From positions 1 to 22,374 of the IMG/VR virus record IMGVR_UViG_3300046009_012979: DNA of 22,374 nt; one strand, 5' to 3'. The DNA comes from a virus. Positions 976-13,229 of the stretch are shown here, in pieces (position 1 is the stretch's first letter; every line of letters starts with the position of its first letter). The notes beneath the pieces are model-generated. The model searched no databases, had not been told where the DNA came from, and was given only the letters and a program-made list of their open reading frames with translations. Made by a program: the position numbers and the translations under genes.

Positions 976-1764
976 TCAAAAAGATCGATACCCAGCTTTG
1001 AGTGCTCTTACTAAGTCATTTGTGTCTATTGTGCCATCCCTTTCTAATACTGAGGTTTTAGCAGCATCATCACATGAACGGGTAATTTCAGCGTGACTTA
1101 ATCCTGCTGCTTCTTTTTCAAGTGCATCCCAATCAATTTCTTTTAGTGTAAACTTGTATAGCCCGTTCTCAACAATCTGGCGAACTTGATTGCTTGAAGG
1201 TAATTCATATCGGATAACATCATCAAACCGTCTAAACAAGGCGAAATCTAAAAGATCAATGTGATTGGTTGCAGCTACTATAAGACTATCAGAATTATCC
1301 GCTTCCATAAATGTAAGAAAAGAATTTAACACTCTACGAATTTCTCCTACGTCATTTGAGCAATCTCTTTTCGAGCCTATGGCATCAAATTCATCAAAAA
1401 AATATAAACCCCGATCTGTTCTCATAAATTCAAATACTTGACGAAGTTTACTAGCTGTTTCACCCATATATTTGGTAATTAGTCCATCCAAACGGATAGT
1501 AAACAACGGCATGTTCAATTCACTAGCAAGGGCTGAAGCAGTCACTGTTTTACCTGTCCCAGGGGGACCGTATAATAGTAATTTCCTTCTGTTCTTAAGA
1601 CCATACTGCCGGAGCTTAGATTGTTGGCGGAATTCTAAAATTAGCCTTTTAAATACTTTATTTTGTTCTGGAGAGAAAGTAAGACTGGATAACCTAATTT
1701 TTGGCTCGGTTACGGTTAGGAGTGCATCTTTGTCCAGTTTACCATCTTTTATTGTAAGCGTCAT
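976..1764 (-). CDS. Small AAA+ ATPase sharing an N-terminal motif with the LRR-like proteins
   Basis: A single classical AAA domain fills most of this 262-residue protein. Walker A 'GPPGTGKT' is at 66-73, a pore-loop-like 'KYMGE' at 98-102, Walker B 'YFFDEFD' at 121-127 (D124, E125), sensor 1 'AATNH' at 164-168 (N167), arginine-finger candidates R178 and R179 in 'FRRFD', and a lid motif 'GLSHAEI' at 221-227. All catalytic residues are present, so it should hydrolyse ATP and remodel or unfold a protein partner; it lacks protease or substrate domains. Residues 5-15 'IKDGKLDKDAL' match the N-terminal segment of the thirteen repeat proteins, and 25 of 26 bases match the start of the neighbouring repeat gene. 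It follows the array in the same direction with a 51-base gap and a CGAGGA ribosome binding site. A functional link with the repeat proteins is inferred from this shared motif and the gene order. Confidence 0.85.
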   Translation of the reverse strand: MTLTIKDGKLDKDALLTVTEPKIRLSSLTFSPEQNKVFKRLILEFRQQSKLRQYGLKNRRKLLLYGPPGTGKTVTASALASELNMPLFTIRLDGLITKYMGETASKLRQVFEFMRTDRGLYFFDEFDAIGSKRDCSNDVGEIRRVLNSFLTFMEADNSDSLIVAATNHIDLLDFALFRRFDDVIRYELPSSNQVRQIVENGLYKFTLKEIDWDALEKEAAGLSHAEITRSCDDAAKTSVLERDGTIDTNDLVRALKAGYRSF

Positions 1765-1815
1765 TTTATATCCTCGTTTTTTTTTGCACTAATTTAACAT
1801 TATGTAAACTATATT

Positions 1816-2436
1816 TTATATCCTGTTTGTAACTCGAACATTTCCTTTAAATAATCCAAGATCAAGCGAGGCTAAAGAATTACATTTATAAAACTCAACA
1901 TCACCGTTAAAAGTAGCTTCATTTACCGAGCTTAAGTAATCGCATCCATTAAAATTAACCTTATCGTTAAAAACAGCACCAGAAACAGAAATTAAAGATC
2001 TACACCAATTAAACTCAACATAACCGTTAAAAGTAGCTCCAGTAACTGTTTTTAAAGAGGGGCAATGAGAAAAATCAACACCACCGTTAAAAGTAGCACC
2101 AGCGACAGAGGCTAAAGAATCGCACCCATAAAATTCAACATAACGATAAAAAATAATGCCGGCAACCGAGGCTAAAGAATCGCAAGCTCTAAACTTAACA
2201 TAATCGTTAAAAGTAGCACCTTCAAGCGAGGCTAAAGCATTGCAGTTATAAAACGCAACAACACCATTAAAAGTAGCACCTTCAAGCGAGGCTAAAGCAT
2301 TGCAATACGAAAACCCAACATCAATTTTAAAAATTATCTCAACGCCTTCAATTTCTACAACATCATCTCCAAATTCTGCCAAGGCTTCTTTATCCAGTTT
2401 ACCATCTTTTATGTATTCATCCGTTATTTCTATCAT
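1816..2436 (-). CDS. LRR-like repeat protein, array 1 gene 6 (8 repeats)
   Basis: The product has 206 residues: a 38-residue N-terminal segment ('MIEITDEYIKDGKLDKEALA...'), eight 20-residue repeats from residue 39, and a type-B C-cap ('LDLGLFKGNVRVTNRI') unlike the GFxAxxCPNL cap of most relatives. Here the cap ends NRI rather than IREEIK, and no ribosome binding site is built into it; the ATPase gene follows after a gap. Repeats 3-4 ('IIFYRYVEFYGC') are encoded by 59 bases identical to a block in the second array (12119-12177), so sequence has moved between arrays. Its start overlaps the stop of gene 5 as TAATG. Translation probably depends on ribosomes arriving from upstream. Confidence 0.85.
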   Translation of the reverse strand: MIEITDEYIKDGKLDKEALAEFGDDVVEIEGVEIIFKIDVGFSYCNALASLEGATFNGVVAFYNCNALASLEGATFNDYVKFRACDSLASVAGIIFYRYVEFYGCDSLASVAGATFNGGVDFSHCPSLKTVTGATFNGYVEFNWCRSLISVSGAVFNDKVNFNGCDYLSSVNEATFNGDVEFYKCNSLASLDLGLFKGNVRVTNRI

Positions 2437-3365
2437 TATTTTATCTCCTCCCTTATAATTCGAACATTTCTTTTAAACAATCCAAGATCAAGCGAGGCTA
2501 AAGAATTACATTTATAAAATTCAACATTACCGTTAAAAACGGCACCAGAAACCGAGGTTAAAGACTTGCAATACAAAAACTCAACATTACCCTTAAAAGT
2601 AGCACCTTCAAGCGAGGCTAAAGCATTGCAGTTATAAAACGCAACAACACCATTAAAAGTAGCACCAGAAACCGAGGTTAAAGAATCAGACCAGCAAAAC
2701 TTAACATTACCCTTAAAAGTAGCATCAGCAAGCGAGGCTAAAGCATTGCAGTTATAAAACGCAACAACACCATTAAAAGTAGCACCAGAAACCGAGGTTA
2801 AAGAATCAGACCAGGAAAACTTAACATTACCATTAAAAACGGCACCAGAAACAGAAATTAAAGATCTACACCAATTAAACTCAACATAACCGTTAAAAGT
2901 AGCTCCAGCAACTGAGACTAAAGAATCGCAAGCTCTAAACTTAACATAATCGTTAAAAGTAGCATCAGCAAGCGAGGCTAAAGCATTGCAGTTATAAAAC
3001 GCAACAACACCATTAAAAGTAGCACCAGAAACTGAGGCTAAAGACTCGCAATACAAAAACTCAACATAACCGTTAAAAGTAGCACCAGCAAGCGAGGCTA
3101 AAGCATTGCAGTTATAAAACGCAACAACACCATTAAAAGTAGCACCAGCAAGCGAGGTTAAAGAATAGCATTCATAAAAATAAACAACACCATTAAAAGT
3201 AGCACCTTCAAGCGAGGTTAAAGACTCGCAATACGAAAACCCAACATCAATTTTAAAAATTATCTCAACGCCTTCAATTTCTACAACATCATCTCCAAAT
3301 TCTGCCAAGGCTTCTTTATCTAGTTGACCATCTTTTATGTGTTCATCTGTTATTTTTATAATCAT
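2436..3365 (-). CDS. LRR-like repeat protein, array 1 gene 5 (13 repeats, the longest)
   Basis: At 309 residues this is the longest family member: 39 + 13 x 20 + 10. Four of its repeats (3, 5, 9 and 11) are the near-identical unit 'VVAFYNCNALASL', alternating with 'SWSDSL' or 'CWSDSL' units. Two-repeat (120 bp) blocks at about 2582-2701 and 2702-2821 differ at only a few bases, which indicates expansion by slippage or unequal recombination. It has the type-B cap 'LDLGLFKRNVRIIREEIK', whose GAG GAG codons supply the Shine-Dalgarno sequence of the next gene. In repeats 8 and 10 serine replaces the usual cysteine of the FxxC motif. The start overlaps the stop of gene 4 by one base (TAATG). No signal peptide or membrane segment is visible, so it is probably cytoplasmic. 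Confidence 0.88.
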   Translation of the reverse strand: MIIKITDEHIKDGQLDKEALAEFGDDVVEIEGVEIIFKIDVGFSYCESLTSLEGATFNGVVYFYECYSLTSLAGATFNGVVAFYNCNALASLAGATFNGYVEFLYCESLASVSGATFNGVVAFYNCNALASLADATFNDYVKFRACDSLVSVAGATFNGYVEFNWCRSLISVSGAVFNGNVKFSWSDSLTSVSGATFNGVVAFYNCNALASLADATFKGNVKFCWSDSLTSVSGATFNGVVAFYNCNALASLEGATFKGNVEFLYCKSLTSVSGAVFNGNVEFYKCNSLASLDLGLFKRNVRIIREEIK

Positions 3366-4132
3366 TATTTTAACCCCTCTTGTTTAAGGTTGGGGCAATG
3401 CTTGGCTTCAAAGCCTTTTTTAAAGGTTGCACCATCAACTGAGGCTAAAGAGTTACAATGCCAAAATTCGACATCACCGTCAAAAGTAGCACCAGAAACC
3501 GAGGTTAAAGAATCAGACCAGCAAAACTCAACATCACCATTAAAAACGGCACCAGAAACCGAGGCTAAAGAATAGCAATACCAAAACTGAACCTCACCGT
3601 TAAAGGTAGCACCAGAAACCGAGGTTAAAGACTCGCACTGCCAAAACTGAACCTCACCGTTAAAGGTAGCACCAGTAAGCGAGGCTAAAGCATTGCAGTT
3701 ATAAAACGCAACACCACCATTAAAAGTAGCACCTTCAAGCGAGGTTAAAGACTCGCAATACGAAAACCCAACATAACCGTTAAAAGTAGCACCAGAAACT
3801 GAGGCTAAACGATTGCACCACGAAAACTTAACATTACCCTTAAAAGTAGCACCAGAAACCGAGGTTAAAGAATCAGACCAGGAAAACTCAACATTACCCT
3901 TAAAAGTAGCACCTTCAAGCGAGGCTAAAGCATTGCAGTTATAAAACGCAACAACACCATTAAAAGTAGCACCTTCAAGCGAGGTTAAAGACTCGCAATA
4001 CGAAAACCCAACATCACTATTAAAAATTATTTTATCGCCTTCAATTTCTACAACATCATCTCCAAATTCTGCCAAGGCTTCTTTATCTAGTTGACCATCT
4101 TTTATGTGTTCATCTGTTATTTTTATAATCAT
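3365..4132 (-). CDS. LRR-like repeat protein, array 1 gene 4 (10 repeats)
   Basis: This 255-residue protein is exactly 39 + 10 x 20 + 16. The last five repeats and cap ('EVQFWQC...' to 'GFEAKHCPNLKQEGLK') are almost the same as those of the gene at 10569-11144 in the other array: I count about seven mismatches over some 286 bp (3405-3690 against 10597-10882). Repeats 1-2 and 5-6 are near copies of one another, pointing to an internal duplication of a multi-repeat block. The cap reads KQEGLK, with GAGGGG as the built-in Shine-Dalgarno sequence of gene 5. Repeats 3 and 9 have serine in place of cysteine ('SWSDSL', 'CWSDSL'). Confidence 0.88.
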   Translation of the reverse strand: MIIKITDEHIKDGQLDKEALAEFGDDVVEIEGDKIIFNSDVGFSYCESLTSLEGATFNGVVAFYNCNALASLEGATFKGNVEFSWSDSLTSVSGATFKGNVKFSWCNRLASVSGATFNGYVGFSYCESLTSLEGATFNGGVAFYNCNALASLTGATFNGEVQFWQCESLTSVSGATFNGEVQFWYCYSLASVSGAVFNGDVEFCWSDSLTSVSGATFDGDVEFWHCNSLASVDGATFKKGFEAKHCPNLKQEGLK

Positions 4133-4656
4133 TATTTTAACTCCTCTTGTTTAAGGTTGGGGCAACTATAAGCTTTAAAGCCCAGTTTAAAGGTTGCGCC
4201 AAAAACGGAAGCTAAAGAATCGCAGTTATTAAAAATGACTTTACCATTAAATGTAGCACCAGAAACAGATACTAAAGAATCGCAAAACAAAAACTCAACA
4301 TCACTATTAAAAACAGCACCATCAACGGAAGCTAAAGAATCGCAATCACGAAACTCAACATTACCGTTAAACGTAGCACCCTCAACCGAGGTTAAAGAAT
4401 AGCACCACGAAAAGTCAACATTACCTTTAAAAGCAGCACCAGCAACGGAACTTAAAGACCTGCAATGCAAAAACGCAACGTAACGGTTAAAAGTAACACC
4501 CGAAACCGAAGTTAAAGAATCGCATTCATAAAAATCTACATCAGTCTTAAAGACAATCCGATCACTTTCAAACGCTACCGCATCAGCCCCAAACTTTACC
4601 AAGGCTTCTCTATCTAGTTGACCATCTTTTATATAATCATCTGTAATTTCTATCAT
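4132..4656 (-). CDS. LRR-like repeat protein, array 1 gene 3 (6 repeats)
   Basis: The product has 174 residues, with an N-terminal segment one residue short ('MIEITDDYIKDGQLDREALV...'), six repeats and the type-A cap 'GFKAYSCPNLKQEELK'. Its N-terminal segment is the most divergent of this array ('KFGADAVAFESDRIVF' instead of 'EFGDDVVEIEGDKIIF'). Repeat 4 'NVEFRDCDSLASVDGAVFNS' is identical to repeat 2 of gene 2, so neighbours share modules. All six repeats keep the cysteine. The stop overlaps the start of gene 4 as TAATG, and GAG GAG in the cap provides that gene's ribosome binding site. Confidence 0.87.
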   Translation of the reverse strand: MIEITDDYIKDGQLDREALVKFGADAVAFESDRIVFKTDVDFYECDSLTSVSGVTFNRYVAFLHCRSLSSVAGAAFKGNVDFSWCYSLTSVEGATFNGNVEFRDCDSLASVDGAVFNSDVEFLFCDSLVSVSGATFNGKVIFNNCDSLASVFGATFKLGFKAYSCPNLKQEELK

Positions 4657-5120
4657 TATTTTATCTCCTCTTGTTTAAGATTAGGGCAGTCATAAGCTTC
4701 AAAGCCGCGTTTAAATGTAGCACCAGAAACAGATACTAAAGAATCGCAATCACGAAACTCAACATTACCGTTAAAAGTAGCTCCAGAAACAGATGTTAAA
4801 GAATCGCACCACCAAAACTTAACATTACCGTTAAAAGTAGCACCATCAATCGAGGCTAACAAATAGCATTTATTAAATTCAACATCACTATTAAAAACAG
4901 CACCATCAACGGAAGCTAAAGAATCGCAATCACGAAACTCAACATTACCGTTAAAAGTAACACCTTCAAGCAAAATCAAAGAATCGCACCGCCAAAACTC
5001 AACATTAGTTTTAAAAGTTATCTTATCACCTTCAAACTCTACAACATCTACCCCTAACGCAGCCAAGGCATCTTTATCGAGTTTACCGTTTTTTATGTGT
5101 TTGTTTGTTATTTCTATCAT
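4656..5120 (-). CDS. LRR-like repeat protein, array 1 gene 2 (5 repeats)
   Basis: This is the shortest member at 154 residues, with five repeats and the type-A cap 'GFEAYDCPNLKQEEIK'. Repeats 2 and 5 both carry 'NVEFRDCDSL', while repeat 4 carries 'NVKFWWCDSL', a typical case of constant framework with changed residues around the F and C. Repeat 1 departs from the framework ('SLILLEG'). It overlaps both neighbours by one base (TAATG junctions), so it is translationally coupled. Its N-terminal segment begins 'MIEITNKHIKNGKLDKDALA', close to the ATPase motif 'IKDGKLDKDAL'. Confidence 0.87.
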   Translation of the reverse strand: MIEITNKHIKNGKLDKDALAALGVDVVEFEGDKITFKTNVEFWRCDSLILLEGVTFNGNVEFRDCDSLASVDGAVFNSDVEFNKCYLLASIDGATFNGNVKFWWCDSLTSVSGATFNGNVEFRDCDSLVSVSGATFKRGFEAYDCPNLKQEEIK

Positions 5121-5587
5121 TATTTTATCTCCTCTTGTTTTAGATTAGGGCAATGGTAGGCTTTAAAGCCTTTTTTAAAGGTTGCACCAGCAACTGAGGT
5201 TAAAGAATCGCAATCCCAAAATTCGACATCACCGTTAAAAACTGCACCAGAAACCGAGGCTAAAGAATCGCACCGCAAAAAGTCAGCATTACCGTTAAAA
5301 GTAGTATTTTTAACAGAGGCCAAAGACTCGCACCAATATAATTCAGCATCACCATTAAAAATAACATCAGCAACAGAAGCTAAAAAATTACATTCACGAA
5401 ATAAAACCCTATGGTTAAAAGTAGCACCTTCAAGCGAGGTTAAAGACTCGCAATACGAAAACCCAACATCACTATTAAAAATTATCTTATCGCCTTGAAT
5501 TTCTACAACATCATCCCCTAGTAAGGCCAAAGCTTCTTTATCGGGTTTACCGTCTTTTATATGTTCATCTGTTATTCTTATAATCAT
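5120..5587 (-). CDS. LRR-like repeat protein, array 1 gene 1 (5 repeats); family description
   Basis: First gene of array 1, 155 residues. The family plan is a 39-residue N-terminal segment ('ITDEHIKDG...DKEALA..G.DVVEI...IIF'), repeats of consensus xVxFxxCxSLxSVxGATFNG, and a C-cap. The 'VxFxxCxSL' core fits the LxLxxCxxL strand of cysteine-type leucine-rich repeats, and 'FxxCxSLxSV' recalls BspA-like LRR_5 units, but 20 residues is short for that family. I infer a beta-solenoid binding protein; no enzyme motif, signal peptide or membrane segment is seen. Here the five repeats are relatively diverged ('RVLFREC', 'DAELYWC', 'NADFLRC'). It is preceded by AACAGGAGTTAGAATAATG, 21 bases after the membrane protein gene, and its cap GFKAYHCPNLKQEEIK embeds the next ribosome binding site. 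Confidence 0.87.
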   Translation of the reverse strand: MIIRITDEHIKDGKPDKEALALLGDDVVEIQGDKIIFNSDVGFSYCESLTSLEGATFNHRVLFRECNFLASVADVIFNGDAELYWCESLASVKNTTFNGNADFLRCDSLASVSGAVFNGDVEFWDCDSLTSVAGATFKKGFKAYHCPNLKQEEIK

Positions 5588-8870: not shown

Positions 8871-9446
8871 CTATTGTTTTAGATTGGGGCAATGGCAGGC
8901 TTTAAAACCTTTTTTAAAGATTGCACCAGAAACGGAAGTTAAAGAATCGCAATACGAAAACACAACCTTACCGTTAAAAGTTGCACCCTCAGCCGAGGTT
9001 AAAGAATTGCAACAGTCAAACACAACCTTACCGTTAAAAGTTGCATCAGCAAGCGAAGTTAAAGAATAGCACCACGAAAACTCAACATTACCATTAAAAG
9101 TAGTGCCAGCAACCGAGGCGAAAGACTTGCAAGACACAAACTCAACATTACCATTAAAAGTAGAGCTAGCAACCGACACTAAAGAATCGCATTCATAAAA
9201 ATCAACATAAACATTAAAAGTAACACCTTCAAGCGAGGCTAAGGAATCGCACCGAAAAAAATCAACATAACCGTTAAAAGTGACACCTTCAAGCGAAGTC
9301 AAAGAATCGCACCGAAAAAACTCAACATCTTTTTTAAAAATTATCTTATCCCCTTCAACTTCTACAACATCAGCCCCAAATTCTGCCAAGGCTACTTTGT
9401 CTAGTTGGCCGTTTTTTATATCTTCATCTGTAATTTTTATAATCAT
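8871..9446 (-). CDS. LRR-like repeat protein, array 2 gene 7 (7 repeats, last)
   Basis: A protein of 191 residues (39 + 7 x 20 + 12). Repeats 1 and 2 ('DVEFFRCDSL', 'YVDFFRCDSL') are near copies. Repeats 6 and 7 start 'KVVF' and differ in the next residues (DC, SY). Repeat 4 has F where L is usual ('CKSFASV'). The cap 'GFKACHCPNLKQ' ends at a TAG and is followed by GGGTAGAGC, a degraded remnant of the CAATAGGAG junction, so another gene once followed or the array was cut here. The start overlaps the stop of gene 6 as TAATG. Confidence 0.87.
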   Translation of the reverse strand: MIIKITDEDIKNGQLDKVALAEFGADVVEVEGDKIIFKKDVEFFRCDSLTSLEGVTFNGYVDFFRCDSLASLEGVTFNVYVDFYECDSLVSVASSTFNGNVEFVSCKSFASVAGTTFNGNVEFSWCYSLTSLADATFNGKVVFDCCNSLTSAEGATFNGKVVFSYCDSLTSVSGAIFKKGFKACHCPNLKQ

Positions 9447-10030
9447 TATTTTAACTCCTCTCTTATAATTTGAACATTTCTTTTAAACAATCCAAGATCA
9501 GGCAACTTTAAAGACTTACACTTAACAAAACTAACATTATCGTAAAAAAAGGCATCATTCACCGAACGCAAGGAATCGCATCCATGAAAACTAACGCAAC
9601 CTTTAAAAATAGAGTTAGAAACTGAAGATAAAGATCTACACCAATTAACAAAAAGATGACCGTTAAAAGTAGTATCAGCAACCGAGGTTAAAGAATCGCA
9701 ATGCGCAAACTCAACATTAAGGTTAAATTGTCCGCCATGAACGGAGGCTAAAGAATTGCAATGAAGAAATTGAACATTACTGTTAAAAGTTGCGTTGCGG
9801 AGCGAGTCTAAAGAATCGCAATAGAAAAACCTAATATTGCTATTCTTATCCTCAGAACTTTGAAAAAAAACACCCTGAAGCGACTTTAAAGAGTAGCAAC
9901 AGTCAAACGTAACATCATTGTAAAAAAAAATCTTACTGCCATCAATTCTGACAGTATTACCGCTTAGCCTAGCCAAGGCTTCTTTATCTAACTTACCGCC
10001 TGTTATATATTTATCTGTTATTTCTATCAT
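9446..10030 (-). CDS. LRR-like repeat protein, array 2 gene 6 (7 repeats, divergent)
   Basis: At 194 residues this is the most divergent member: a 38-residue N-terminal segment ('MIEITDKYITGGKLDKEALARLSGN...'), seven repeats and the type-B cap 'LGLFKRNVQIIREELK'. A six-residue insertion ('SEDKNS') lies between repeats 1 and 2, one of only two breaks in the 20-residue rule across the family. Framework changes include 'HLFVNWC' in repeat 5 and 'SLKLPDLG' in repeat 7. The type-B cap is otherwise found only in genes 5 and 6 of array 1. It begins 11 bases after the stop of gene 5 behind AATAGGAGAAAAAATAATG, and its cap codes for the next ribosome binding site. Confidence 0.85.
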   Translation of the reverse strand: MIEITDKYITGGKLDKEALARLSGNTVRIDGSKIFFYNDVTFDCCYSLKSLQGVFFQSSEDKNSNIRFFYCDSLDSLRNATFNSNVQFLHCNSLASVHGGQFNLNVEFAHCDSLTSVADTTFNGHLFVNWCRSLSSVSNSIFKGCVSFHGCDSLRSVNDAFFYDNVSFVKCKSLKLPDLGLFKRNVQIIREELK

Positions 10031-10041
10031 TATTTTTTCTC

Positions 10042-10557
10042 CTATTGTTTTAGATTGGGGCAGCTATGAGCTTCAAAGCCTTTTTTAAAGGTTGCACCAG
10101 CTACTGAGGCTAAATAATTGCAATAAAAAAACTCAACGCCACCGTTAAAAACAGCATCAGAAACCGAGGCTAAAGAAATACAAGAAATAAACTCAGCATC
10201 ACCGTTAAAAGTAGCACCAGCCACTGAGCTTAAATTGCGGCACTCTCTAAACAAAATCATTTTGTTAAAAGTAGCACCAGCAGCGGAGCTTAAAGAATCG
10301 CAATCCCAAAACCTAACAGCACCGTTAAAAGTAGTACCAGCAACTGACACTAAAGAATCACAACGATCAAACTTAACATTACCGTTAAAAGTAGCACTCT
10401 CGACAGAGGTTAAAGACTTGCATTCATAAAACTCAACCTCAGTTTTAAAAATTATCTTATCGTCTTGAAACTCGACTGCATCAGCCCCTAGCAAGGCCAA
10501 GGCTTCTTTTTTTATTTTGCCGTCTTTTATATCTTCATTTGTTATTTTTATAATCAT
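10042..10557 (-). CDS. LRR-like repeat protein, array 2 gene 5 (6 repeats)
   Basis: This 171-residue protein is 39 + 6 x 20 + 12. The N-terminal segment 'ITNEDIKDGKIKKEALALLG' belongs to the 'LALLG' subgroup with array 2 gene 3 and array 1 gene 1. Exposed positions vary widely (YE, DR, WD, RE, IS, FY between F and C), and repeat 4 departs from the framework ('MILFRECRNLSSV'). The cap ends KQ with TAG, where a single base change from GAG removes the last four residues found in other caps. The ribosome binding site AATAGGAG survives as the signal for gene 6. Confidence 0.87.
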   Translation of the reverse strand: MIIKITNEDIKDGKIKKEALALLGADAVEFQDDKIIFKTEVEFYECKSLTSVESATFNGNVKFDRCDSLVSVAGTTFNGAVRFWDCDSLSSAAGATFNKMILFRECRNLSSVAGATFNGDAEFISCISLASVSDAVFNGGVEFFYCNYLASVAGATFKKGFEAHSCPNLKQ

Positions 10558-10568
10558 TATTCTAACTC

Positions 10569-11144
10569 CTATTGTTTTAGATTGGGGCAGTGTTTAGCTT
10601 CAAAGCCTTTTTTAAAGGTTGCACCATCAACTGAGGCTAAAGAGTTACAATGCCAAAATTCGACATCACCGTCAAAAGTTGCACCAGAAACCGAGGCTAA
10701 AGAATCAGACCAGGCAAACTCAACATCACCATTAAAAACGGCACCAGAAACCGAGGCTAAAGAATAGCAATACCAAAACCGAACCTCACCGTTAAAGGTA
10801 GCACCAGAAACCGAGGTTAAAGACTCGCAATGCCAAAACTGAACCTCACCGTTAAAGGTAGCACCAGTAAGCGAGGTTAAAGACTCGCAATACAAAAACT
10901 CAACATTACCATTAAAAACGGCACCAGAAACCGAGGTTAAAGAATAGCAATGTTCAAAATCAACGTCACCCTTAAAAGTTGCACCAGCAAGCGAGGTTAA
11001 AGAATAGCAACACGAAAACGCAACATCACTTTTAAAAATTATCTCAACGCCTTCAATTTCTACAACATCATCTCCAAATTCTGCCAAGGCTTCTTTATCT
11101 AGTTGACCATCTTTTATGTGTTCATCTGTTATTTTTATTATCAT
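10569..11144 (-). CDS. LRR-like repeat protein, array 2 gene 4 (7 repeats)
   Basis: I start this gene at the ATG at 11144, giving 191 residues, because the family segment 'MIIKITDEHIKDG' begins there behind AATAGGAGTTAGAATA; a frame open back to 11177 adds 11 residues that do not belong to the family. Repeats 4-7 and the cap are nearly identical to the end of array 1 gene 4 about 7.2 kb away, while repeats 1-2 ('DVAFSCCYSL', 'DVDFEHCYSL') are not, so it looks like a hybrid made by recombination between the arrays. Repeat 6 has serine for cysteine ('AWSDSL'). Confidence 0.88.
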   Translation of the reverse strand: MIIKITDEHIKDGQLDKEALAEFGDDVVEIEGVEIIFKSDVAFSCCYSLTSLAGATFKGDVDFEHCYSLTSVSGAVFNGNVEFLYCESLTSLTGATFNGEVQFWHCESLTSVSGATFNGEVRFWYCYSLASVSGAVFNGDVEFAWSDSLASVSGATFDGDVEFWHCNSLASVDGATFKKGFEAKHCPNLKQ

Positions 11145-11155
11145 TATTCTAACTC

Positions 11156-11971
11156 CTATTGTTTTAGATTGGGGCAATTGTAAGCTCTAAAGCCTTTTTT
11201 AAAGGTTGCATCAGCAACGGAGATCAAAGATTTGCAACTTTCAAATTTAACATTACCGTTAAATGTAATGTCGTAAACAAAGAATAAATTATTACACTCA
11301 AAAAATTCAACATCACCGTTAAAAGTAATCCCAGTAACAGAGGCTAAAGATTTGCAGTAAGTAAAATGAACTCTACCATTAAAAGTGGCTCCAGAAAGCG
11401 AGGTTAAAGACTCGCAAAGATAAAACTTAACATCACCGTTAAAAGTAGATCCAGCAACTGAAGTTAAATATTTGCAGTAAGAAGACTTAACATTACCGTA
11501 AAAAGTAGTACCATCAACCGACTTTAAAGAATTGCAATTTTCAAAATCAACCTCACCCTTAAAAACAGTGCCATCAACTGAGGCTAAAGAATCGCACCAC
11601 AAAAACACAACCTCACCTTTAAAAGTTACTCCAGATACCGTAGCTAACGAATTGCAATGCAAAAAAGCAACACGACGGTTGAACACAGCTCCTTTAACAG
11701 AGGTTAAAGAGTTACATCTATCAAAATATACATTATTGTTAAAAGTAGCACCATCAAGCGAGGCTAAAGAATCGCACGGCAAAAAAAGAACATTACCATT
11801 AAAAGTAGTGCCAGAAAGCGAGGTTAAAGACTTACACCAACTAAACCCTACATCACTTTTAAAAATTATCTCATCGCCTTCAATTTCTACAACATCAGCC
11901 CCTAGCAAGGCCAAGGCTTCTTTGTTTATTTTTCCGTTTTTTATGTATTTATCTGTTATTTTTATAATCAT
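11156..11971 (-). CDS. LRR-like repeat protein, array 2 gene 3 (11 repeats)
   Basis: The product has 271 residues (39 + 11 x 20 + 12) and, unlike the long genes of array 1, its eleven repeats are all different, with no near-identical units. It therefore appears older or less homogenised. Residues between F and C run SW, LP, DR, LH, LW, EN, (SY), YL, TY, FE and ES. Repeat 7 lacks the usual phenylalanine ('NVKSSYCKYL') and repeat 10 is degenerate ('CNNLFFVYDITFNG'). The cap 'GFRAYNCPNLKQ' ends with TAG 11 bases before gene 4. The start overlaps the stop of gene 2. Confidence 0.88.
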   Translation of the reverse strand: MIIKITDKYIKNGKINKEALALLGADVVEIEGDEIIFKSDVGFSWCKSLTSLSGTTFNGNVLFLPCDSLASLDGATFNNNVYFDRCNSLTSVKGAVFNRRVAFLHCNSLATVSGVTFKGEVVFLWCDSLASVDGTVFKGEVDFENCNSLKSVDGTTFYGNVKSSYCKYLTSVAGSTFNGDVKFYLCESLTSLSGATFNGRVHFTYCKSLASVTGITFNGDVEFFECNNLFFVYDITFNGNVKFESCKSLISVADATFKKGFRAYNCPNLKQ

Positions 11972-12582
11972 TATTCTAACTCCTCTTGTTTTAGATTATT
12001 GCATTTGTAAGCTTTAAAGCCACATTTAAAAATAGCATTGTCAACTGAGGCTAAAGAGTTACACCTATAAAAACTAACTTTATTATAAAAAACCGCACAA
12101 TCAACCGAGGCTAAAGACTCGCACCCATAAAATTCAACATAACGATAAAAAATAATGCCGGCAACCGAGGCTAAAGACTCGCACACCCAAAACTTAACAA
12201 TACCATTAAAAACCGTACCAGCGAGCGACGATAAAGAATCGCAAAACAAGAAAACAACATCACTATTAAAAACAGAATCAGAAACAGAAACTAAAGCAGG
12301 GCAATCCAAAAACCGAACATTACCATTAAAAGTAGCATCAGAAACAGATTTTAAATAAGTGCAATCTCTAAATAAGACCATATTGTTAAAAATTACTTTT
12401 GCAAGTGAACCTATAGAGTTAATAATCCACTCCCCATTATCTTGATAAGCATCAAACTTAACATCAGTTTTAAAAATTATTCTATCACCTTGAATTTCTA
12501 CAACATCATCTCCAAATTCTGCCAAGGCTTCTTTATCTAGTTGACCATCTTTTATGTGTTCATCTGTTATTTTTATTATCAT
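11971..12582 (-). CDS. LRR-like repeat protein, array 2 gene 2 (7 repeats, one lengthened)
   Basis: The first repeat of this 203-residue protein is enlarged by eight residues ('DVKFDAYQDNGEWIINSIGS') and lacks the cysteine, which may form a loop or a variant N-terminal cap. Six normal repeats follow, then the cap 'GFKAYKCNNLKQEELE'. The 'IIFYRYVEFYGC' unit is encoded by 59 bases identical to array 1 gene 6. The N-terminal segment matches that of array 1 gene 4 ('MIIKITDEHIKDGQLDKEAL'). It overlaps both neighbours by one base, with GAG GAG in the cap as ribosome binding site. Confidence 0.87.
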   Translation of the reverse strand: MIIKITDEHIKDGQLDKEALAEFGDDVVEIQGDRIIFKTDVKFDAYQDNGEWIINSIGSLAKVIFNNMVLFRDCTYLKSVSDATFNGNVRFLDCPALVSVSDSVFNSDVVFLFCDSLSSLAGTVFNGIVKFWVCESLASVAGIIFYRYVEFYGCESLASVDCAVFYNKVSFYRCNSLASVDNAIFKCGFKAYKCNNLKQEELE

Positions 12583-13229
12583 TATTCTAACTCCTCTATT
12601 TTAAGATTAGGGCAGCTGTCTGCCTTAAAGCTTTTTTTAAAAGTAGCACCAGCGACCGAGGTTAAAGAATAGCACCACGAAAACTTAACATTACCCTTAA
12701 AAGTAGCACCAGCAACTGAGGTTAAAGAATCGCAATCCCAAAATTCGACATCACCGTTAAGCGTAGCACCAGAAACCGAGGCTAAAGAATTGCACAAAAC
12801 AAACTCAATATTACCATTAAATGTAACACCCTCAACAGAGGTTAAAGAATCGCAATCTCTAAACTTAACATCACCGTTAAAAGTTGCACCCGAAACGGAG
12901 GCTAAAGAATAGCACCAACCAAACCAAACATCATCATTAAAAGTAACACCATCAAGCGAGGCTAAAGAATAGCACCAACCAAACCAAACATCATCATTAA
13001 AAGTAACACCATCAAGCGAGGCTAAAGAATTGCACCTCCAAAACTTAACACAACCGTTAAAAGTGACGCCTTCAAGCGAAGTCAAAGAATCGTGCCGCCA
13101 AAACTCAACACCTTTTTTAAAAATTATCTTATCCCCTTCAATTTCTACAACATCATCTCCAAATTCTGCTAAGGCTGCTCTATCTAACTGACCGTCTTTT
13201 ATATCTTGGTCTGTTATTTTTATAATCAT
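12582..13229 (-). CDS. LRR-like repeat protein, array 2 gene 1 (8 repeats, fresh duplication)
   Basis: First gene of array 2, 215 residues (39 + 8 x 20 + 16). Repeats 3 and 4 ('DVWFGWCYSLASL/V') arise from a perfect 60-bp tandem duplication (12901-12960 equals 12961-13020), the clearest sign that units are still being added. Repeat 1 has histidine in place of cysteine ('FWRHDSL') and repeat 6 reads 'ATLNG'. The cap 'SFKADSCPNLKIEELE' retains GAG GAG. The gene is headed by AACAGGAGATAAAATAATG and a leftward promoter 35-60 bases upstream. Confidence 0.88.
   Translation of the reverse strand: MIIKITDQDIKDGQLDRAALAEFGDDVVEIEGDKIIFKKGVEFWRHDSLTSLEGVTFNGCVKFWRCNSLASLDGVTFNDDVWFGWCYSLASLDGVTFNDDVWFGWCYSLASVSGATFNGDVKFRDCDSLTSVEGVTFNGNIEFVLCNSLASVSGATLNGDVEFWDCDSLTSVAGATFKGNVKFSWCYSLTSVAGATFKKSFKADSCPNLKIEELE
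12901..13020 (-). repeat. Perfect 60-bp tandem duplication
   Basis: Bases 12901-12960 and 12961-13020 are identical, and the match runs ten bases further into 13030. Each copy encodes one LRR-like repeat in frame. No base has changed, so the duplication is recent or has been homogenised. Confidence 0.98.

Follow-up and report, generated by a model that had tools for sequence, protein, structure and literature searches.

A solo, N-terminally shortened IetA-type AAA+ ATPase with a repeat-gene start in a tailed phage, a candidate antitoxin mimic

The ATPase that closes a run of repeat genes in a tailed phage is, judged by its sequence, a homologue of IetA, the AAA+ antitoxin of the IetAS toxin-antitoxin/defence pair. 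It has no N-terminal domain of the IetA type and no IetS partner nearby, and it begins with a short segment related to the starts of the neighbouring repeat genes. We propose that this solo, shortened protein may act as an antitoxin mimic against a putative IetAS system of the host, and we put the probability of this reading at about 0.4.

The window, which is the whole stretch of DNA analysed here, is the complete IMG/VR record IMGVR_UViG_3300046009_012979 (22,374 bases). Its terminase, head-tail connector and RecT-like and RecE/YqaJ-type recombination genes identify it as a tailed phage. Promoter and terminator scans gave no signal above the shuffle level, and the Rfam search gave no matches. 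A 190-aa protein encoded at 143-715 of the window was weakly similar to permuted papain-like amidases of the YaeF/YiiX type, under the Pfam cut-off. The features discussed below are collected in Table 1.

Table 1. Features of the ATPase gene and of the repeat-gene array (window coordinates)
Feature	Coordinates	Strand	Remarks and basis
ATPase ORF, solo N-terminally shortened IetA-type AAA+	976..1764	(-)	262 aa; PADLOC, Pfam and NCBIfam matches
Walker B, FFDEFD	1384..1401	(-)	Sequence reading; invariant in 50 sequences
Walker A, GPPGTGKT	1546..1569	(-)	Sequence reading; columns invariant or nearly so in 50 sequences
ATPase codons 1-14 (MTLTIKDGKLDKDA), non-IetA segment related to repeat-gene starts	1723..1764	(-)	IetA homology from residue 12-15
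26-base stretch in ATPase, 25/26 match to R1	1727..1752	(-)	DNA comparison
12-base direct repeat AGGATATAAAAT, second copy, RBS/start region of ATPase	1763..1774	(-)	Sequence reading
12-base direct repeat AGGATATAAAAT, first copy, altered 3' end of R1	1813..1824	(-)	Sequence reading
Repeat genes R6-R1 in head-to-tail order, encoding pentapeptide-like beta-solenoid proteins; upstream of ATPase	1816..5587	(-)	
R1 counterpart of the ATPase 26-base stretch	2387..2412	(-)	DNA comparison
Repeat genes R13-R7, second block of the same array	8871..13229	(-)	

The assignment to IetA came from several profiles, and all of them left the front part uncovered. PADLOC identified the ATPase as IetA (E 4.5e-71), with only positions 78-318 of the 374-position profile matched, from ATPase residue 15 onward. 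The NCBIfam equivalog NF042959 gave 216.3 bits over profile positions 81-322 of 367, which missed its whole-protein cut-off of 510, and the match to PHROG 3757 also started at profile position 81. Pfam AAA (PF00004) was matched with an E-value of 1.4e-31. The nearest sampled relative was the IetA of Legionella shakespearei (71-72% identity). In the tree, the window ATPase lies in the same clade as paired ietA genes and groups with this L. shakespearei protein, which is itself paired. Compared with known IetA (pTiC58 IetA; SgiA of SGI1; PADLOC IetA and NF042959), it has the AAA+ core of IetA, including the Walker A/B, sensor and arginine residues and nearly all conserved positions, but differs by the missing N-terminal domain, the missing IetS partner, the foreign start segment and the low equivalog score. 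In the tested cases, IetA homologues were experimentally the antitoxin and IetS the toxin (PMC5006074, PMC8562856). NCBIfam labels both the ATPase and the peptidase of the pair as anti-phage, under the names 'IteA/IteS'. The record of Pseudomonas phage PfAC08 (L107) swaps the two names relative to common usage, with 'IetS' for the ATPase and 'IetA' for the S8 peptidase.

The N-termini were read in 96 first-found homologues, comprising 16 from viral contigs and the best 80 of 515 from bacterial genomes. All 96 carried an extra N-terminal domain of about 70-80 residues of the type MATAEQIKALLKSHIEGDDERFYSVAMQVAAHEAKQGHGKLAEELRDLIDAAK (MATAEQIKxLLKSH...), in which 9 columns are conserved at ≥95%, and after it a linker, PRGELAN for example, ahead of the position from which the window ATPase can be aligned. 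An HMM of this domain found no match in the window ORF, and the profile matches of the ORF started at 69-106. No remnant of the domain can hide upstream because R1 ends 51 bases from the ATPase. In nearly all homologue alignments, the IetA homology of the window ATPase begins at residue 12-15, and the segment related to the repeat genes sits exactly at this break. We conclude that the native 5' end was lost and that a repeat-gene start took its place.

The DNA comparison pointed to the same origin. The N terminus of the ATPase reads MTLTIKDGKLDKDALL, and codons 5-12 fall in the stretch shared with R1, the repeat gene directly upstream. All other copies of this stretch in the window with up to six mismatches are repeat-gene 5' ends (1 mismatch for R1, 3-6 for the rest). 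The best local alignment of the ATPase 5' region with the array starts scored 48, and none of 2000 dinucleotide shuffles reached this score (mean 23.8, maximum 41). The remainder of the ATPase gene scored 22, which does not exceed the shuffle level. R1 and the ATPase segment also share the leucine codon CTG, which makes up 3% of the leucine codons among the counted phage genes. Such a shared rare codon argues against convergence at the protein level and points to DNA ancestry in common with R1, the repeat gene nearest to the segment in sequence. The match stops after about codon 14 and has no clean extension upstream. The native IetA linker (residues PRGELANLL) was considered as the source of the segment and ruled out, given the specific DNA match to R1. 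An earlier, sequence-only reading had noticed that the ATPase carries the N-terminal motif of the repeat proteins, which the shuffle control bears out, and had offered the capture of a 5' end from the array as one option. This option is supported by the position at which IetA homology starts and by the missing native domain.

We then considered the partner of IetA. The subtilase IetS was the next gene in 90 of 97 homologue entries (tblastn), and the remainder were mostly cut by contig ends. An IetS HMM from 84 sequences found no match in the window or in L020/L103. This contig derives from the same phage in a different sample (99.97% identity over 5.8 kb) and adds 8.5 kb to the right of the window's phage genome. 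Within the available sequence, this phage carries an antitoxin homologue and no toxin. The absence covers the near neighbourhood, with flanks of about 4 kb and an incomplete phage genome, so that a distant IetS is possible, and the HMM misses very divergent subtilases, for example in L106 and L107.

Scanning viral contigs with a profile gave 58 IetA loci. By the same IetS HMM, IetA was alone in 12 of 41 evaluable viral loci, whereas this was the case for 0 of the 89 bacterial ones (Fisher p 9e-8, calculated from 13/42 by including one locus whose IetA is cut). The two sets had been gathered with different search patterns; with the patterns of the bacterial scan, solo IetA made up only about 1 of 14 evaluable viral loci. 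The lone loci without IetS in their flanks (L128, L138, L146, L151-L154, L157, L159, L163, L164 and L168) correspond to about 10 distinct ones, since L151-L153, drawn from two records, seem to be copies of a single phage gene. Two of them, L154 and L157, are also without the N-domain and start with other short sequences, and both fall in a different clade from the window ATPase. The contig of L157, which also encodes a tRNA synthetase and ankyrin-repeat proteins, is possibly bacterial. Mapped on the tree, the solo state took 10 label changes, at least 6 of them forced by well-supported branches, which points to several independent origins of lone IetA.

Since lone IetA recurs in phages but was absent from the bacteria sampled, phages may be using it against a host toxin. 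The core would act in trans by binding or remodelling the IetS subtilase of the host, so preventing toxicity or abortive infection. The more general proposal, which we advance tentatively, is that phages repeatedly strip IetA from ietAS and keep it alone, in some cases only its AAA+ core, for counter-defence by disarming the host IetS protease; in the present case, the core would have been re-started from a repeat-gene 5' end. The lost N-domain could be the IetS-binding part, and the core alone might then not neutralise the toxin. Phage antitoxin mimics against toxin-antitoxin defence are known (PMC11481870), such as ICP1 Gp145 against DarT, T4 Dmd and pseudo-ToxI, and the proposed logic is alike, namely a phage antitoxin activity without the toxin. 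While ICP1 Gp145 has <15% similarity to DarG, the window ATPase, a putative neutraliser, is a homologue of the antitoxin itself. No description of a phage counter-measure against IetAS was found in the open-access literature searched.

The main rival to the antitoxin mimic is a decaying remnant. In this view, the phage would once have carried ietAS in full, and after the loss of the toxin and of the first antitoxin domain the rest would persist without function. IetS and the N-domain are indeed both gone, and an antitoxin may drift when no toxin remains to neutralise. However, the gene keeps an open frame of 262 codons and a plausible ribosome-binding site, and past the break it retains 71 of the 72 core columns conserved at ≥95% (the exception is residue 258), which leaves the catalytic core intact. 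Amino-acid change is strongly reduced relative to silent change (nonsynonymous distance to the L. shakespearei IetA 0.215, synonymous sites saturated). The other two solo copies without the N-domain also argue against simple decay. We regard the remnant as rather unlikely, though a serious competitor.

Another role as an AAA+ protein, unrelated to IetS, was also weighed, in which the ATPase would remodel a phage or host protein. Its model showed a normal AAA+ domain (mean pLDDT 87), and Foldseek placed the fold near PAN/FtsH motors (E down to 9e-20). The fold is that of a generic motor, and the protein lacks a domain that might contact IetS, both of which would suit such a role. Its nearest relatives, however, are all IetA, with none found that plays a role of this kind, which makes this alternative improbable.

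The array beside the ATPase consists of thirteen tandem pentapeptide-like repeat genes in two blocks flanking the recombination genes and an SSB, and the ATPase is the final gene of the R6-R1 run. Three of four tested proteins passed the 27-bit cut-off of Pfam PF13576 (Pentapeptide_3), with 47.0 bits for R1, 57.9 for R2 and 38.0 for R11; R8 reached only 13.5 bits, under this gathering score. The repeat protein was modelled as a beta-solenoid (20 residues per turn), with a confident fold in the absence of any partner. The array proteins thus resemble pentapeptide repeat proteins (PF13576; AlbG, Qnr) in Pfam score and modelled fold, and only the short N-cap stretch is common to them and the ATPase. 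None of the solved structures was close, the best Foldseek match being AlbG (E 0.087, low TM-score). Single-protein and alignment searches of viral contigs found no relatives of the repeat proteins. Cap-profile searches of 369 genomes of the L. shakespearei class and 131 of its family gave weak matches only, and a scripted attempt to identify a weak match that recurred in proteins of about 950 aa had no result. In L. shakespearei family genomes L111, L112 and L115, BspA-like repeat proteins have an N-terminus, LLKVTDNDIKKDGSY, that is faintly like the N-cap IIKITDEHIKDGQL. This likeness (LLKVTDNDIKKDG) was not relied on, as the profile comparison gave a probability of 7.8%.

The sequence-only reading had also suggested that the shared segment is a functional tag or docking element, and that the ATPase could load, unfold or assemble the repeat proteins or what they bind. 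The shared segment itself and the position of the ATPase next to R1, the last gene of its run, could be taken in this sense. We consider it very improbable. Neither repeat genes nor the segment motif were present at any of the IetA loci fetched, and the known partner of the family is a protease toxin, IetS. The degenerate DNA pattern for IK[DN]G.LD[KR].AL had a single match in 2.9 million viral contigs, in a GC-rich, unrelated protein encoded next to virion genes (INPTTFIKDGKFDKDALVG, L018); among these contigs the motif is thus not widespread and sits on no other ATPase. In the R1 model (mean pLDDT 95), the segment is folded as part of the solenoid N-cap, while residues 1-10 of the ATPase are predicted to be disordered (pLDDT ~35), and the solenoid is confidently modelled without a partner. 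The models suggest a structural job for the segment in the repeat protein and none evident in the ATPase. Apart from the origin of the 5' end, the only tie left between ATPase and array is the position at the end of the run, and docking or servicing is not supported.

How the gene arose can be outlined as follows. An ietAS locus, with its nearest sampled relative in L. shakespearei, would have entered the phage or its ancestor, and IetS and the N-terminal domain of IetA would have been lost. A rearrangement would have put the ietA fragment in place of the body of the repeat gene that adjoined R1, with the AAA+ core fused in frame around codon 12-14 behind the repeat-gene start. The comparison shows that this start gave the ATPase a start codon and about 14 residues; the order of events is our inference. 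The N-terminal segment is most likely a fusion scar that ensures translation, a by-product of the event. The 3' end of R1 diverges from its paralogue R2 (VTNRI in place of IIREEIK), and this altered C-terminus and the AGGATATAAAAT pair flanking the R1-ATPase gap are possible traces of the rearrangement. A chimeric assembly join that put an ietA fragment beside the array is hardly credible: the junction does lie in a repeat-rich stretch and the sister contigs L019-L021 overlap the window only from 16.5 kb onward, but the longest exact run shared by the ATPase region and any array copy is 20 bases, the sequence upstream has no exact match to any array copy, and frame, start codon and ribosome-binding site are intact.

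In conclusion, the window ATPase apparently adds to the known IetA proteins a solo member without the N-domain, whose start comes from a neighbouring gene family. The case shows how a neighbouring tandem gene can lend its start to a truncated gene and so rescue it, and that the result can mimic a shared functional tag. IetAS is counted among the anti-phage systems, and lone IetA of phages is a concrete candidate class of counter-measure against it.
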